NCBI GenBank assembly: GCA_001600495.1
Contig: BCKE01000062.1
Coordinates: forward strand, 168,790 to 232,789
Reading direction: 5' to 3'
Source of the DNA: Pilasporangium apinafurcum
Lineage: Eukaryota; Oomycota; Peronosporomycetes; Pythiales; Pythiaceae
Length of the DNA stretch: 64,000 bases
Of the stretch, positions 18,088 through 26,498 are shown in pieces (position 1 is the stretch's first letter; each line of letters begins with the position of its first letter). The notes beneath the pieces were generated by a model. It saw only the letters and a program-made list of their open reading frames with translations, ran no database searches and was not told the DNA's origin. The position numbers and the translations under genes are program-made.

Positions 18088-21000
18088 TCATACACTCTCT
18101 ACTTCGACAATATAGCGGATTCGAGCTTGCGCCTCGTTGTAGACGATGTATTCCGCGTACTCGGAGCGATTAGGAGTAATTAGCGTATAGCCTTCATCCA
18201 CTGCACTTCGGTAGAGCATGTTGCGGTAGCGTCTGATGTTATAGCTATATAAAAAACGATCGCCTTCGCTGACGGTGATCTTGGCGGTGATATCATAGTG
18301 TTCCGTCAACCCTCGGTCATTATCATCTGCATCATTCCCGCTAATTTTATCCACCACCTCGATCTTAATCGTCTTGCTTTCGAAGTTATATGTTATGAAA
18401 TGGGCTTTCTCTGCGTGTTCTTCCACGATAAACGACTCGCCTTCGCCCAACTTATCCACGACTTTTTCCAAGTACGCCTGCGTTTCTTCAGTAAACTTCG
18501 GATTGCGTTCGTACCAGCTCGTCGGTTGTGGGTTTGGCTCAGTTTTTGCCCAAACCTTTTCGATTGGAATGCTCTCGCCTACAACAACGACACGTCCCAT
18601 GTGCATTAGTGCACCCGACATGGGGGACACAAGTGCTCCAGCAGGATGAGGAGTATTGCGAGATAACGCCTTAACACTCTGTATGCCCTCTGGGATCGTA
18701 TCGTAGAACGTCGCAGTTACCAATTCTGTGGGTGTGCCCAACGCAACCTCACAGAGAAGCATGTAGTGCACCCTGCGCTTCTTCTCGACTACTTCGCCAT
18801 CTTTTTCAATGCTCGTACTGGTAATCACATAGGGCGCATCACAGTAGTTCAAACTCTTGGCGGAGATATCAGCGAAGTACAAACCTTTCCCATATGCATA
18901 ACCTTGATGTGGTGCCTCGGGAGGTGCGATGCGGAGCCCCTGCGAAAGAATCCCCATCAAGTTGGTCCGTCGTGTACCGTGCCACAACAAATGAGAATGC
19001 TTCTCCTTAAACGTTGGGTTTTCCTCGAGGAAATTGAAAAAACGACTTTTCTCTCCATGACGCTCCACCTGGAAAAGATTCGAAATCCGATATTTCTTGC
19101 GGTCATGCTCGCGCGTGCCCTTGAAGAAGTACTCTGACACGAACTGAGCCTCTTTTGATTCCTTTGGCATGGAAGAGAGGCGCACTTGCATCGCGTTGTA
19201 ACAATATTCCAGTGGATGGATCGTATGTTGATTACGTTTGGCTCCAAGAATCATCTTGTATGTCTCCATGATTTCCATCAGCAAGCGGAGTCGTGTGATT
19301 TCTTTGTTCACATCCTGTACGCTGTCAAAACCCTTAATCGCTGAACCGAACGCATCTTCATCACATGGCATGACTTCGTAATATCGACTAGATTTTTCAC
19401 TGATTTTCTCCGTCATCTTCGTATGCGTTTCGGACAAATCAGCAAGGGAGCTCCCGCCATCTTCCGTTATCGTGCCACTTGCCTTCTGGATGTCGTCCGA
19501 TACTTGGTTGCGCTCCTCAATCAAATCGCGAATTTCATGCAGCGTCTTCAAAGCTGCACGCAAACCTTCTTGTTCGGCAAGAGGGAGGTCACCATTGAAG
19601 TCGCATTGCTGTGTGGCGGCTAGCTGGAGATTTCGAATATCTGTGATAGCGTGTAGCATATCTGTCACACTGGGCATGGCACAATCACTATTGCGAAAGT
19701 CAGGAAGGGTTGTCTTTTCTGCTTTAGCTGTCTCAATGAATGGACACATAATTTCTTTGTCCAATTCGGTATGATGATTGACACGTTGTATCAAATTATA
19801 CTTTTTGTCGTGCTTCACAAAGTCTTGCCGAGCTTCCCAAACATTTCCGGTTTTGGATCTAAAGATCTTCTTAAATTCAGAAACCCCATCCTCCTCTGAG
19901 TGGAACGGCGTGTTCTGATACTTACCCGTCTCGCCGATACGACCCCAGTTCGTGAAAAGAATATAAATGCCTTGGATTTCATCCAACACCAATTGCATGC
20001 GATAAAATACGTTGAGCCCAAACCGTCCGTTCTTGACGTCTACTTTAGTCAATAGTGCGTCATATTCTTCGCCCTTGATCAAGTTGTTGTTATCATCCAG
20101 CTTTCCGTGTACATGGCTGAGATTGCCGACGTCGCAATTATTGTTGACTTTTGGATCAATTCTTGTTCGCTTAATTTTGCCGTTCTCCTCACATTCTTGT
20201 ACATACTTGGCCGCATCTTCAGCATAATTTGGCGCAGCTTCAAACATCATTTCATCGTCGCTTCTAAAGCATGCCTCCTCGGACTGAGTTACGATATTTG
20301 GATATTCCTTTTTCAGAAAGCGGAACACAAAGCGAGATGCCTGAGATCGTGCATAGTCAATAATAGTGAGTCCGTCTTTATCTTTTGCACGAATATTCCC
20401 GCCCGCATCGATGAACTGTTTTAGAAGAAAGGTGTTTTCATATGAGCCATACTCGACAGGCTTCATAGCGAAATGGAGCACAGTCCGACCAGACCGGTTA
20501 GCTTGATTGAGTGCTAATTTAATGTCTCCTGCAGGGATGTGCAGCGCCTTGAGTATTTTCTTTGATGTATCCGTTGGATCACGGACATTTTTTATCTTGC
20601 CCAATGCAAGTTGGATTTCATGGACTAGATTCTGACTCACGAGATGCATCAAAAATGAGTTTCCTTCGCCATCTGTCCCCGTAATCTTCGCACCATACCG
20701 CAGTAGGAGTCCAATCATATGCACGCGAGTATATGCTGAACTCGTATAAATCATGCGAATCAGAGCAGTCATCTTGATGTTCACACTTGATTTTGCTAGT
20801 GCTGGATTACGAAACATATCTTTCCGAACCATACTTGTAAATTTTCCATTTGGGTCCACACCTCGCTTCAATAATGTCTCAACCCAAGTAAAGTGTGCTT
20901 GCGTCTCGACCCACGCAAAGCATTGTTTTAAACATTCAATTTGGTTGCCAAATCGGTCGAGGAAAGCTGTGAGCAAATTCAACCCCATGTGGTCAACCGC

Positions 21001-24000
21001 ATGAATATTCACACCAGGTTTGTCCAGGAAGTATTGTAGAACATCCATAATTTCTTTGATGTTGAGCGTTTTACTCTTCTTCAATGCGTAGAGTGGTGGC
21101 GTCTCACCAGAACCGTTTTGTTGATTCACGTCGCATTGCTGATAAAGAAGAAAATCAAGTAAATGAATGTTTCCAATCTTAGCAGCATAGTGGAGAGCAG
21201 AATTTCCTTTCTTGTTCTGTTGCATCGAGTTTGTGCCAGCGTCAATCAGTGTCCACGCAATTCTCCGCGCAAGATTGTCAAAAGGTTTGTTTACCTTTGC
21301 TAACGAATGTAAAAGTGTTTCACCTTGATCATTTACTCTTTTCAAGAGCGTATTGTCATTCGCCATCTCAATTAACGTGATCAAATTACTTGCAAGCTGA
21401 AATTGGCCACAGAGTATTGCATCTTCAATAGCTTGGCGTCGGCAAAACTTGGCTGCAAGGAATAAGTGACAGATACCAGTAAGCGAGTGGCTGACAGCAT
21501 AGTAGAAGTAGCTAAGGGACTTGATCTTGTCGCGTTCCTCTCCAGTAAGGGTATCGATGACTTTGCTTTTGACATGAATCTTTCCGTTAACATCAGCGTG
21601 GCTCTGAAGAAGGGTCATTATCGTTGTTTGTCGTAAGTGCAACACAGCGCTTCCGAGCGGGGTGAACTTTTCAACATCTTCAAGCGATAGCAACTTCTGC
21701 TTACTCTGTTCCTTCGAATGCACTGCAAGGATAGTTGACGCACATACAAATGCACCAGTTGCCGCTGCCAAGTGCAAAGGTGTTCGACCCAATACATCTT
21801 GAGCATTGACATTAACACCTCGGACGGCGGATAGATTTGATACTGTTTCCACAGGATCTGTATTTTTCTTTGGAATCTTGGATATAACTTCAAGAAAGGC
21901 TTTCAATTTCTTGCTTTCGTATGTACCATCTTCACGCTCTTTTCGAGTATCATCTGTATCATTCGCCTTCTTCTTCTCTTTATCATATTTATATTGCCAT
22001 TCAAAGTCAACTTTGAACAGTGCAAAATGGAGTGGTGTGAACTGGAAATTATCTTGTGCATTTATATCGGAGCCGCATTGCAAGAGAAAACGCTCGACGT
22101 CGAATGATGCGTCTGGACTGATTACTGCGGCATTAATAGCATAGTGAAGTGGGGATCGTCCTAAGGAATCGAGTGTGTTCACTGCCGCTCTCTTGTCTTG
22201 GCTGATATTGACTAAAGCACGAAGTAAGGGCATATCACGGTATCCAGCAGCAAAATGAATTGGTGTGCGATTGTTGTCATCACCTAAAATCACCGTTTGT
22301 TTGGCGCGCTTGTCTTGCAACGCTACTTCAATTGCTGCAAGCGATTTTTTGTCCCTCAATCCAGTATTGACAACAGAAGCAGTTGAGTTGTTCTTCGATA
22401 GGTCGGTATATATAACCTCTCCTTCATGGGGTTCTTTTGCTGGTATTGATTTCTTGGCTTGTACTGCTAGATGAAGTGGTGATGCTCCAACTGCGTTCTG
22501 CTGAGAAAGATTTGCTCCATGCGCCAAAAGTGCTTCAGTAATTTCTATATTATCTTTTTGAAGCGCTATGTGAAGCGGTGTGTCCATAGTTTTTCGCACA
22601 AAGCAACCCACCTTAGCGCCGTTCTTTAGCAATGTTTTCGTTATTGCTGTATTACCTCTTTCCACGGCAATATATAATGCTGTCGCAACGAGCTCCTTCC
22701 CACAATTCGACGTGCATGTTTGTTTCGTATTCAAGGGTTGACTAGAATTCTTGCAGACTTTGCAGCGCCATGGTGAATGATTTGGATCCGCTCCATTGGT
22801 CAATAGTACGTTTACGCTCTGTAAATCATTTACTTCAACGGCATAATACAGTGCTGTCTTGTGATGATTATGATCTGGGAAATTGATAGTTTCTGTATCA
22901 AAGAAGTTTGGACGGATTTTGAACACAGTCTTCATCAAATTTGAGCCAAACCATCGCAGCTTAATGTTCTTGGCATCACAGCTCAACTGACGATTTGCAA
23001 TCAAGTGTAACGCTGTCTGATTTTTGATCACCTTTGATCTGCCTTGCTTTTCTTTTACTCCACCAGCGTCTTCTTCACTCTCGCCCTCATTTTTGTCATT
23101 ATCTTGGTCTGATCGACTGTGATCATCATCATTATTACGATCCATGCTACTATCAGCCATGATGCTTATTGCACATTTGCTTGGGTATACATATTGAATA
23201 TAAGCTTCCAAATCTGTGGTTTTCTCTACAAATAGCTCAACAAGTTGGGAGTATTTGATGTCACACTCTTTGGCACGTTCTTCAACCTTCGAAACAGATC
23301 TTGGTGACTCCGATTCCCCTATCCTTGCACGTTCACTTCCTAATAAAATCAGTAATGGACTCCATCCATAAGAATCTTTCTCGTTCATTAGCGTCAATGT
23401 ATGCGGGCACATATCCGCACACTGACGCACAAGCTTGGGCGATATCAAGTTCATGGGGTCAAGTTTTGCCACAACATGGAAGAAATTCCTGTTTCCGTTC
23501 TTTATTTGCTTTCCATTGAGTTCTAGTGGCTTGTTGCGATGTGTTTTCTTGTGGTGCTGCAACAGGGCTTCTAGAAAGTAATTTCCAGGCTCGCCTAAAG
23601 AAGCAGCTACCATCCAGGCGTCCAATCCACTTGAACCTGTGGCATCAGGACTAGCACCGTAAGTGTTTAGCAGCATATCGAAAACTGCGCGCTGGTTACC
23701 GATCATGGCCAAGTGTAATGGTTGTTGAATTATCTTTTCAGACTGGGCTGTGTTGTCACGCTCAGTCGTTGTTTCCTTAGGGATCTCATATTGCGCCAAA
23801 GCACCATTATCAAGAAGGAGTCGAATCGCCTTGATGAAGAACGATTCATTTTCTGTGGCAATGTTGGCATTATTGTCGGAATGCGCTTTACTTGCACGCG
23901 TAATCATGGTTTGCAACGGGTATTCGTTTTCTGAATCCGGAATATTTGGGTTCAGCCCTTTTTCTAAAAGATATTGAATCTGAGCAAGGTTCTTTGAGTG

Positions 24001-26498
24001 TTTGCACTGCAGAAGCAGCATCGTACAACCCTGACGATCACGGAAATCGACGAAGCGCTTGTCGGCATCTCGTTCAAATATAAACTCAGAGCAATGCAAT
24101 CGTTGTTTCAGTAAGGCGCATGTAAGTGGTACAAAACCCCACGAGTTTCGTGCCCAAAAATCCGCACCCGCGTCTGCAAGAAGCTCGAGACAGGATTTCC
24201 ATCCATAGCTAGCCGCATAATGGACGACACTATTCTGCGATGTATCGAAGGCGTTCACATTTGCGCCATTATTAATGAGGAACGCGGCGATTTTAGTGTT
24301 CCCGTTCTTGACAGCATTTATCAATGGGGTCTTCTTCAGTTTGTCTCCCAGATCAACTTTAGCATTGTGTGCGATTAAAAGCTTCACACATTCCAGATGA
24401 CCGTGTTGAGCAGCAAGGATCAACGGTGTGATTTTGTCAGCACTCACACTATTAACATCAACACATTCTAGCTTTAAAAGCTCCTCAAGAACACGTACAC
24501 ATCCATTCATTGCTGCATAGTGAATAGGTTGGCGTGAGCTTGGACCACGCTCCGAAGCAAGTTTTACAAGGACGTCTCCATCTTCTTCGGCTGCATGGTT
24601 CAACATTAAAATGGCGTTGTCCTCACGCTGAGTGTTGATAGCACACATGATTGGCGTGAATCTGGATTTCGTCCTTGCAAACAGGTTACATCGTCGCTCT
24701 AATAAAAACTGCAACGGCTCTGTTCCTTCACAAACAGCAGCATAATGAATTGGCTCGTATCCATAATCATCCTTCACGGCACTCCACTCTGTCCCAGCGC
24801 TCTCCCATAAAATCTCTAAATATTTCTTATTGGGATTAATTGCCGCCAAATGCAACGGTCGAATCTTCGTTTGAAATGCCTGCTTGATAGCTGACACACT
24901 CCGAAATGCAGGCAAGTCTTCTGTCCCATCACCAAGAACTTTGTAATGCAACTCGTTAAACCCCCATCCTCCCTTTTGCGCTAGTATCTCGATGGCTTTG
25001 TGCGTTAACTTGTAGTTGCCGTTGCGCGCCGCATAAGCAATATTGTTCGATGCGTAGTATCCTTCATTCCACTCTCCTTTGGGATATAAAATAGTCAGCA
25101 TTTTCACACTAGCGGTTTTGCTGTGCCAAATGTAGCTTGTGTCCAACGACGCGTCAGGTTTTTTCGTGTCGGCCATCAACGCATTGTTCCCTTCTTTTCC
25201 ACCACGGCTGGCGTTAATAGCTCTGCGATTGTAATCGCTAAAGGCGCTAGTGTGGCTTCCCGTGGAATGAGTTGGAAGAGAAACCTCTGGAGCGGCCGCC
25301 AGATCCTTAGCTTTGATCTTATGAGCTTTCAATAGCATTGCAGCTGCAACTAAATCGTCACGATCAATTGCAATTTTCAGGGGTGTTTCCTGCACATCAA
25401 CGCTACGTGTGGCTTGAAACGTATTAATTTCCTTGTACGCCGATTTGTCGGTCGTTAGCTTCTTGAGTAATTTGTGGTTTGTCGTGAGCACAGCGCGAAT
25501 CACTTCTGTATTCGCCGCAAAAATGTCACCTTTCATCGAATGATAAGGATGTGTGCCAAAAAGTTCATTGTCTTCGTATTTATCCGCATCAATCGTTGTA
25601 TACCGAGGTGGGATATGCATCTCGGCTTCTCGTTTGCTCAGTTTCTTTGACGATGTATTGCTGACACGCCCACCACTTCCTCGGGATCGCCTGCTTGGTT
25701 TATCATCGCCGTCATCACTGCGAGCAGTCACTGTTACTTTCCGTTTACGGCGTGATGATGCTGGTGGTTTTTCATCATCGACATCATCTTCGTCATCTAT
25801 AGCATTAAAGTTTCCAGATTTTGTTCGTTCAAGACTTCGTTGGATCTAAATCGTTTTACATGCCATGCATAACAAAGTCACAGCAGGGGATCCATCAAAA
25901 CAATTTCGAAGACTAGATTACGTACCCTTGCCATGGATTTCTTTGTAATTTCAAAGGTGTTATCGTCGAATTCATGGACGTATACGTGACAAAGGATGGA
26001 CTGCACGTCAATCCGCTCGTCGTACGCATATTCGTACCGATTCGGTACTCCCGATTTCTTGTTCAGCCAGGTCACTTGCACCACAGCGTCTTCCAGGTCC
26101 AGCATATCTGCTGTCACGTCGTCTTGCAACTGCGCAATCCAAAATTCATCCGTGTCCTTGCTCGTCGTCCCCATACCTTCAGTTACTGGATGTGTTATAA
26201 CCGCTTCCTCTTCTTCTTGTATGCTTTTCGTCTTCACAGACCGCCCGCTGCGCTTCGTAGTAACGGTCACCATCGCTTTCATAGTGGACGTTTTCTTCTT
26301 CTTCGTCATGGCACCGCGTTTTCCGCGAGTTTTTTTGGTTGTTTGCAATTGTACCGGTAGCACTTCCTCGTCTTGTTCGGTGGAAGCGTACACAGCGACA
26401 AAAGACTGCGCCTCCATGACGATCTCCCAGTCCACTTCCGTCCATTTCCGCTTGCCGCCGGTGGCTGGCAAAGCAACACTCTTCGGTGAAGCCACCAT
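18088..26498 (-). CDS. Giant ankyrin-repeat / WGR / PARP protein (two or more exons)
   Basis: Main exon 25845-18088 and an upstream exon ending at 25926, joined across an 80-nt intron (donor GTACGT, acceptor GATTTAG) that keeps phase: KKSMAR then IQRSLER. From the first in-frame ATG at 26498 this gives about 2776 residues. Counting from 25731, residues about 270-1800 are some twenty or more ankyrin repeats; a WGR domain follows near 1900-1980 (ILFTNWGRIGETG), then the helical PARP regulatory domain (SRYYEVMP), then the ART catalytic fold with LLWHGTRRTN (His), GKGLYFADISAKSLNY (Tyr) and AEYIVYNEAQARIRYIVE (Glu). The H-Y-E triad predicts poly- rather than mono-ADP-ribosylation. The order ankyrin-WGR-PARP resembles nematode PME-5, not animal tankyrase, which has a SAM domain. 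The N-terminal exon holds a basic linker and a compact region (VQVTWLNKKSGV...HVYVHEFDDNTFEIT), perhaps BAH- or Tudor-like. About 120 residues are inserted before the catalytic Glu. The frame of the 5' exon stays open to 26588 with an acceptor-like site at 26578, so another exon may exist. Confidence 0.9.
25846..25925 (-). other. Intron joining the PARP N-terminal exon to the main exon
   Basis: 80 nt with donor GTACGT next to AGG and a pyrimidine-poor but usable GATTTAG acceptor. Without it the large frame lacks an ATG: its first codons upstream run open to a TAG that is the acceptor itself. Confidence 0.78.

Follow-up and report, generated by a model that had tools for sequence, protein, structure and literature searches.

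We identified, in the oomycete Pilasporangium apinafurcum, a gene for an ankyrin-WGR-PARP that its domain content places in clade 1 and whose catalytic domain carries 126-134 residues more than human PARP1 before the catalytic glutamate. The extra residues are real and beyond chance. The protein is probably an active enzyme, and our tentative reading, to which we give slightly less than even confidence, is that the insert rebuilds the acceptor site. The gene lies in a window of 64,000 nucleotides, the whole stretch of DNA that was analysed, as a stop-free frame of 2547 residues on the minus strand. Its start is uncertain: the ORF tool opens it at a GTG, an ATG first appears in frame at residue 38 (25617-25731), and there may be a further exon upstream. 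The frame and its domains are as follows.

18088..25731, minus strand: open frame with ankyrin repeats, WGR, PARP regulatory and PARP catalytic domains (ORF reading and Pfam)
20332..24525, minus strand: ankyrin-repeat region, about residues 403-1800, limits approximate (Pfam Ank_2, E = 1.3e-84, 10 stretches)
19819..20064, minus strand: WGR domain, residues 1890-1971 (Pfam, E = 1.1e-18)
19198..19671, minus strand: PARP regulatory (helical) domain, residues 2021-2178 (Pfam, E = 5.7e-8)
18091..19158, minus strand: PARP catalytic (ART) domain, residues 2192-2547, interrupted by the insert (Pfam, E = 3.7e-41)

The ankyrin repeats are N-terminal to the WGR domain, with the Ank_2 match falling before residue 1890, and the WGR and regulatory domains both precede the catalytic domain, which is the WGR-type order of clade 1. 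Scores stand at 67.6 bits against a Pfam cut-off of 22 for WGR, 33.4 against 26.8 for the regulatory domain and 141.3 against a curated cut-off of 26.7 for the catalytic domain. PARP1 is both the closest PDB structure by sequence (E = 6.6e-37) and the top fold match of the structure model (1.8e-18). The ankyrin array is broken by a CxxC...CxxxC cysteine cluster that looks like a zinc knuckle by eye (22696-22764, residues 990-1012).

The succession of ankyrin repeats, WGR, regulatory and catalytic domains is that of clade 1A (PMC2964712), the type of Dictyostelium ADPRT3, and the H-Y-E triad is kept in our protein. Similar ankyrin-WGR-PARPs include C. elegans PME-5 and one protein of Saprolegnia diclina (PMC4245714). 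The domain architecture is already known, and the loop insert is the added feature; the accessible text of PMC2964712 and PMC4245714 does not mention a loop insert in clade 1A members. Its range may be a single species, its order, or all of clade 1A. In Phytophthora infestans, two other WGR-PARPs have been reported, with ankyrin repeats unmentioned in the text searched (PMC11766942). Human PARP1, PARP2 and PARP3 share the WGR-regulatory-catalytic block but have no ankyrin array. Tankyrases (clade 4) likewise combine ankyrin repeats with a PARP catalytic domain; however, they carry a SAM domain and neither a WGR nor a regulatory domain (PMC2964712), whereas the present protein has a WGR domain and no SAM domain among the 10 Pfam families found in it at E <= 0.01. 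On this domain content it would fall outside the tankyrases, whose acceptor loop is far shorter than that of PARP1 (PMC3868897).

The catalytic residues have the following coordinates.

18979..18981, minus strand: H2251, triad histidine
18877..18879, minus strand: Y2285, triad tyrosine
18151..18153, minus strand: E2527, catalytic glutamate, equivalent to PARP1 E988

The original prediction of a PARP catalytic domain with the H-Y-E triad kept is borne out, since H2251, Y2285 and E2527 were all found, and the activity that it expected from the kept triad is one that we also consider probable. The acceptor-site residues His826, Lys903, Tyr907 and Tyr986 of PARP1 all have counterparts here. In PARP1, Met890 stacks on the acceptor adenine. 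The corresponding position is Ala2279 in the present protein, Met in one paralogue from the same genome (C25) and Thr in another (C83). Alanine at this position may alter chain growth and fits a remodelled acceptor site; the retained acceptor residues and this substitution together lead us to infer that the enzyme is active and that its acceptor site is rebuilt. The same substitution, along with a large insertion adjoining the glutamate, might instead mark a pseudo-enzyme whose active site has been disrupted. We regard this as very unlikely, given that the protein retains the whole triad as well as the His, Lys and Tyr residues of the acceptor site and that the catalytic core is modelled at high confidence.

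The insert divides the match to the catalytic domain. This match ends at residue 2362, its best stretch covering profile positions 1-149 of 199, and the C-terminal tail scanned alone matched positions 174-198 with E = 1.4e-4 and 21.9 bits, under the 26.7-bit cut-off. Between the two lie a strand and a long loop.

18577..18597, minus strand: GRVVVVG, residues 2379-2385, which probably corresponds to the PARP1 strand GVDVPLG, with some doubt about the register (paralogue profile)
18154..18576, minus strand: expanded acceptor loop, residues 2386-2526, 141 residues (loop counts against six PARPs)

The 141 residues between G2385, at the end of GRVVVVG, and E2527 compare with 15, 18 and 16 residues in human PARP1, PARP2 and PARP3, and with 16 in a PARP encoded on a viral contig (L024). 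Two further WGR-PARPs of the same genome, L011 (C83) and L012 (C25), resemble the ankyrin-PARP in that their WGR and PARP catalytic matches share a strand but have acceptor loops of 14 residues each, one of these two counts depending on a hand-placed exon join. The six compared loops thus range from 14 to 18 residues; the letters of the PARP1 loop match PDB chains exactly. Because the interval can also be counted from the TPxP motif, the question of strand register can be avoided: TPxP and the glutamate are 167 residues apart here and 33 in PARP1. The net excess over PARP1 is 126 residues counted from G2385 and 134 from TPxP, and the existence of extra length before the glutamate is independent of where the strand is placed. 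The catalytic domain also exceeds that of PARP1 by 16 residues at a second place, which lies between NYC and EVALG (residues 2298-2328), so that 134 and 16 make up the 150-residue difference in His-to-Glu spacing (276 here; 126 in PARP1, from residue numbers in PMC3868897). Among PARP loci on viral contigs, this spacing was 101-129 in the 43 of 52 that could be measured, several of which are near-identical copies; eight of the others had no open frame by our filter and one no match for the glutamate. In five plasmid PARPs, nothing aligned opposite the insert. About 120 residues had been predicted at 18140-18530; the size agrees with the net excess of 126-134, and the coordinates shift slightly, to 18154-18576. 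It had been set out beforehand that such a segment might be normal for all WGR-PARPs, and it is absent from the two paralogues, from PARP1-3 and from the measured viral PARPs.

An intron or an error in the gene model, by which the segment would be spliced out in part or in whole, is highly improbable. A run of 141 codons without a stop has a chance of about 0.0004 at 46% GC. With a codon model trained on the remainder of the same CDS, the insert scored 0.197, equal to the rest of the CDS (window mean 0.192, range 0.071-0.289); the five other frames scored from -0.041 to -0.628, and 12 intergenic windows from -0.445 to 0.098, 11 of them at or below zero. A search of the region for donors matching GT[AG][ATC]G gave just two, one within the insert and one after it, and none precedes it. 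Moreover, an intron covering the whole insert would be at least about four times as long as the four introns placed by hand in the C25 paralogue (61-102 bases). One of those four has a donor, GTAACG, outside this pattern, so weak donors remain conceivable at the insert. Nonetheless, codon use and the open frame indicate that the insert is probably coding and that an intron spanning 18160-18520, named at the outset as a way in which the prediction could fail, is unlikely.

Where the extra residues sit relative to the preceding strand was assessed by sliding profiles of the pre-loop strand along residues 2331-2526, with significance estimated from shuffles. The profile built from C25 and C83 peaked at 2377 (25 of 1000 shuffles as good), as did that of C25 alone (57 of 1000; second-best position 2421). 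The peak was at 2371 for PARP1 with PARP2 (87 of 1000), for a four-PARP profile of C25, C83, PARP1 and PARP2 (28 of 1000) and for a six-PARP profile (184 of 2000), and at 2357 for C83 alone (89 of 1000). Since every peak falls ahead of most of the insert, the insert is likely to follow the strand, as originally proposed, and hence to belong to the acceptor loop. Two results point the other way: MAFFT set the strand of C25 against residues around 2419-2430, and in the structure model GRVVVVG is not formed as a strand (pLDDT about 30 there).

The acceptor loop is highly variable, lines the acceptor site and may specify targets (PMC3868897), and the loop preceding the glutamate influences target specificity (PMC1266365). 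Swapping the acceptor loop of PARP1 lowers PAR synthesis (PMC6486540), and branching has been linked to a few extra residues in the loop of PARP2 (PMC8150716), given as three in PMC3868897 and six in PMC8150716; our own count is three. In these papers the loop is described as able to affect target choice, elongation and branching (PMC3868897, PMC1266365, PMC6486540, PMC8150716). We found no description of a large acceptor-loop insert in a PARP in the open-access text searched.

The insert was modelled both within the protein and alone, and two low-confidence elements were present in both models.

18445..18489, minus strand: predicted helix, residues 2415-2429, low confidence
18214..18399, minus strand: predicted beta-meander, residues 2445-2506, low confidence; in the in-context model a helix replaces part of the last strand

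In context, with 36 aligned sequences, the core was mostly at pLDDT 80-97 and blocks of the insert at 31-62. Alone, the insert had a mean pLDDT of 44.6, with a helix and four strands whose blocks reached about 55-71. By charge-hydropathy the insert scores as disordered (-0.085), whereas the ART core scores +0.097. The expectation that the insert folds as a module is not supported by these values. The insert may be a small alpha-plus-beta module of an unrecognised kind whose first third is flexible, or it may be largely flexible. A rival reading, which we consider somewhat unlikely, is a neutral or nearly neutral expansion that is mostly disordered, has no specific role and is tolerated because the surface loop is a variable one. 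The known variability of this region (PMC3868897), the low pLDDT, the disordered charge-hydropathy value and the lack of a family or fold match all speak for it. Against it, the insert contains 12% aromatic and 36% hydrophobic residues, its second half scores as ordered sequence, and a helix and several strands are proposed for it in context and alone. It also adjoins the catalytic glutamate, where chimaeras of PARP1 pay for changes in length (PMC6486540).

Candidate relatives of the insert did not hold up. A Pfam search to E = 10 returned just the PARP tail, and the best matches in PHROGs (E = 0.058), NCBIfam (E = 0.076) and PDB sequences (E = 0.88) were rejected. Foldseek with the low-confidence insert model gave no matches at E <= 0.001. 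Besides itself, the insert had one genomic match, with E = 1.79 and a stop inside, which we rejected as a second copy. The closest match of the insert elsewhere in the protein pairs residues 2434-2456 with residues 2220-2242, at the start and first strand of the ART domain, with 43% identity over a 23-residue stretch (E = 0.015, uncorrected for composition). This is too weak to establish an origin by duplication within the protein, although a partial duplication is conceivable. In searches of plasmid (10 records) and phage (five records) sequences, matches fell only upstream of the insert or up to its start, and a viral-contig scan that used two insert peptide patterns found no relative.

These searches also recorded PARP genes in other settings. 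The PARP at L024 (2420-4054) is a WGR-PARP on a 54.7-kb viral contig that appears giant-virus-like by eye; it has a PARP3-like acceptor strand, VVVPCG, and the neighbouring frame shows a RING-like cysteine pattern. At 47 viral-contig loci (L026-L072; tblastn, E <= 1e-3), relatives of a phage PARP-like protein are encoded, and PARP-like genes seem to be common in phage contigs. A scan of genome contigs gave one locus, a PARP1-like fragment. The broken-up PARP1-like frame at L019 (4878-5549), on a bacterial MAG contig titled Verrucomicrobiaceae, is probably eukaryotic contamination.

If the insert does rebuild the acceptor site, the enzyme would bind NAD+ in an ordinary donor site, its activity would be controlled by the WGR and helical domains as in PARP1, and the ankyrin array would recruit partners. 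The insert would emerge beside the catalytic glutamate, cover the acceptor site and decide what enters, so that certain protein targets, or the insert itself, would be preferred to the free growth of long poly(ADP-ribose). The altered acceptor access predicted at the outset would be plausible. The same position beside the active site, and the acidity of the insert (19% Asp and Glu, compared with 11% elsewhere in the ART domain), would also suit an element that blocks the acceptor site until displaced or that offers its own acidic or serine residues for modification in cis. However, acidity on its own says little for autoinhibition or self-modification, and we judge such a role quite unlikely.

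The insert might also act as an in-cis counterpart of HPF1, which serves PARP1 and PARP2 in trans, completing the acceptor side and picking the target residue; this is only a faint possibility. HPF1 contacts the terminal Leu-Trp of PARP2 (PMC8150716). PARP1 and PARP2 both have this tail, whereas the ankyrin-PARP protein ends without it, and the absence of the docking tail would fit an HPF1-like insert. However, the frames read for the two paralogues do not end in Leu-Trp either, so its absence is weak evidence. The Pfam search to E = 10 gave no match to HPF1 in the insert, and HPF1 itself is encoded in the genome, with two exon matches over the Pfam cut-off (contig C67:107597-108339; L076, L077).

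In summary, this genome would offer a natural experiment on the role of the acceptor loop, in which a PARP with nearly ten times the loop length of PARP1 occurs together with HPF1 and two WGR-PARPs whose loops are short. Should the insert be kept in orthologues, it would represent a new regulatory or target-selecting element in the PARP family.
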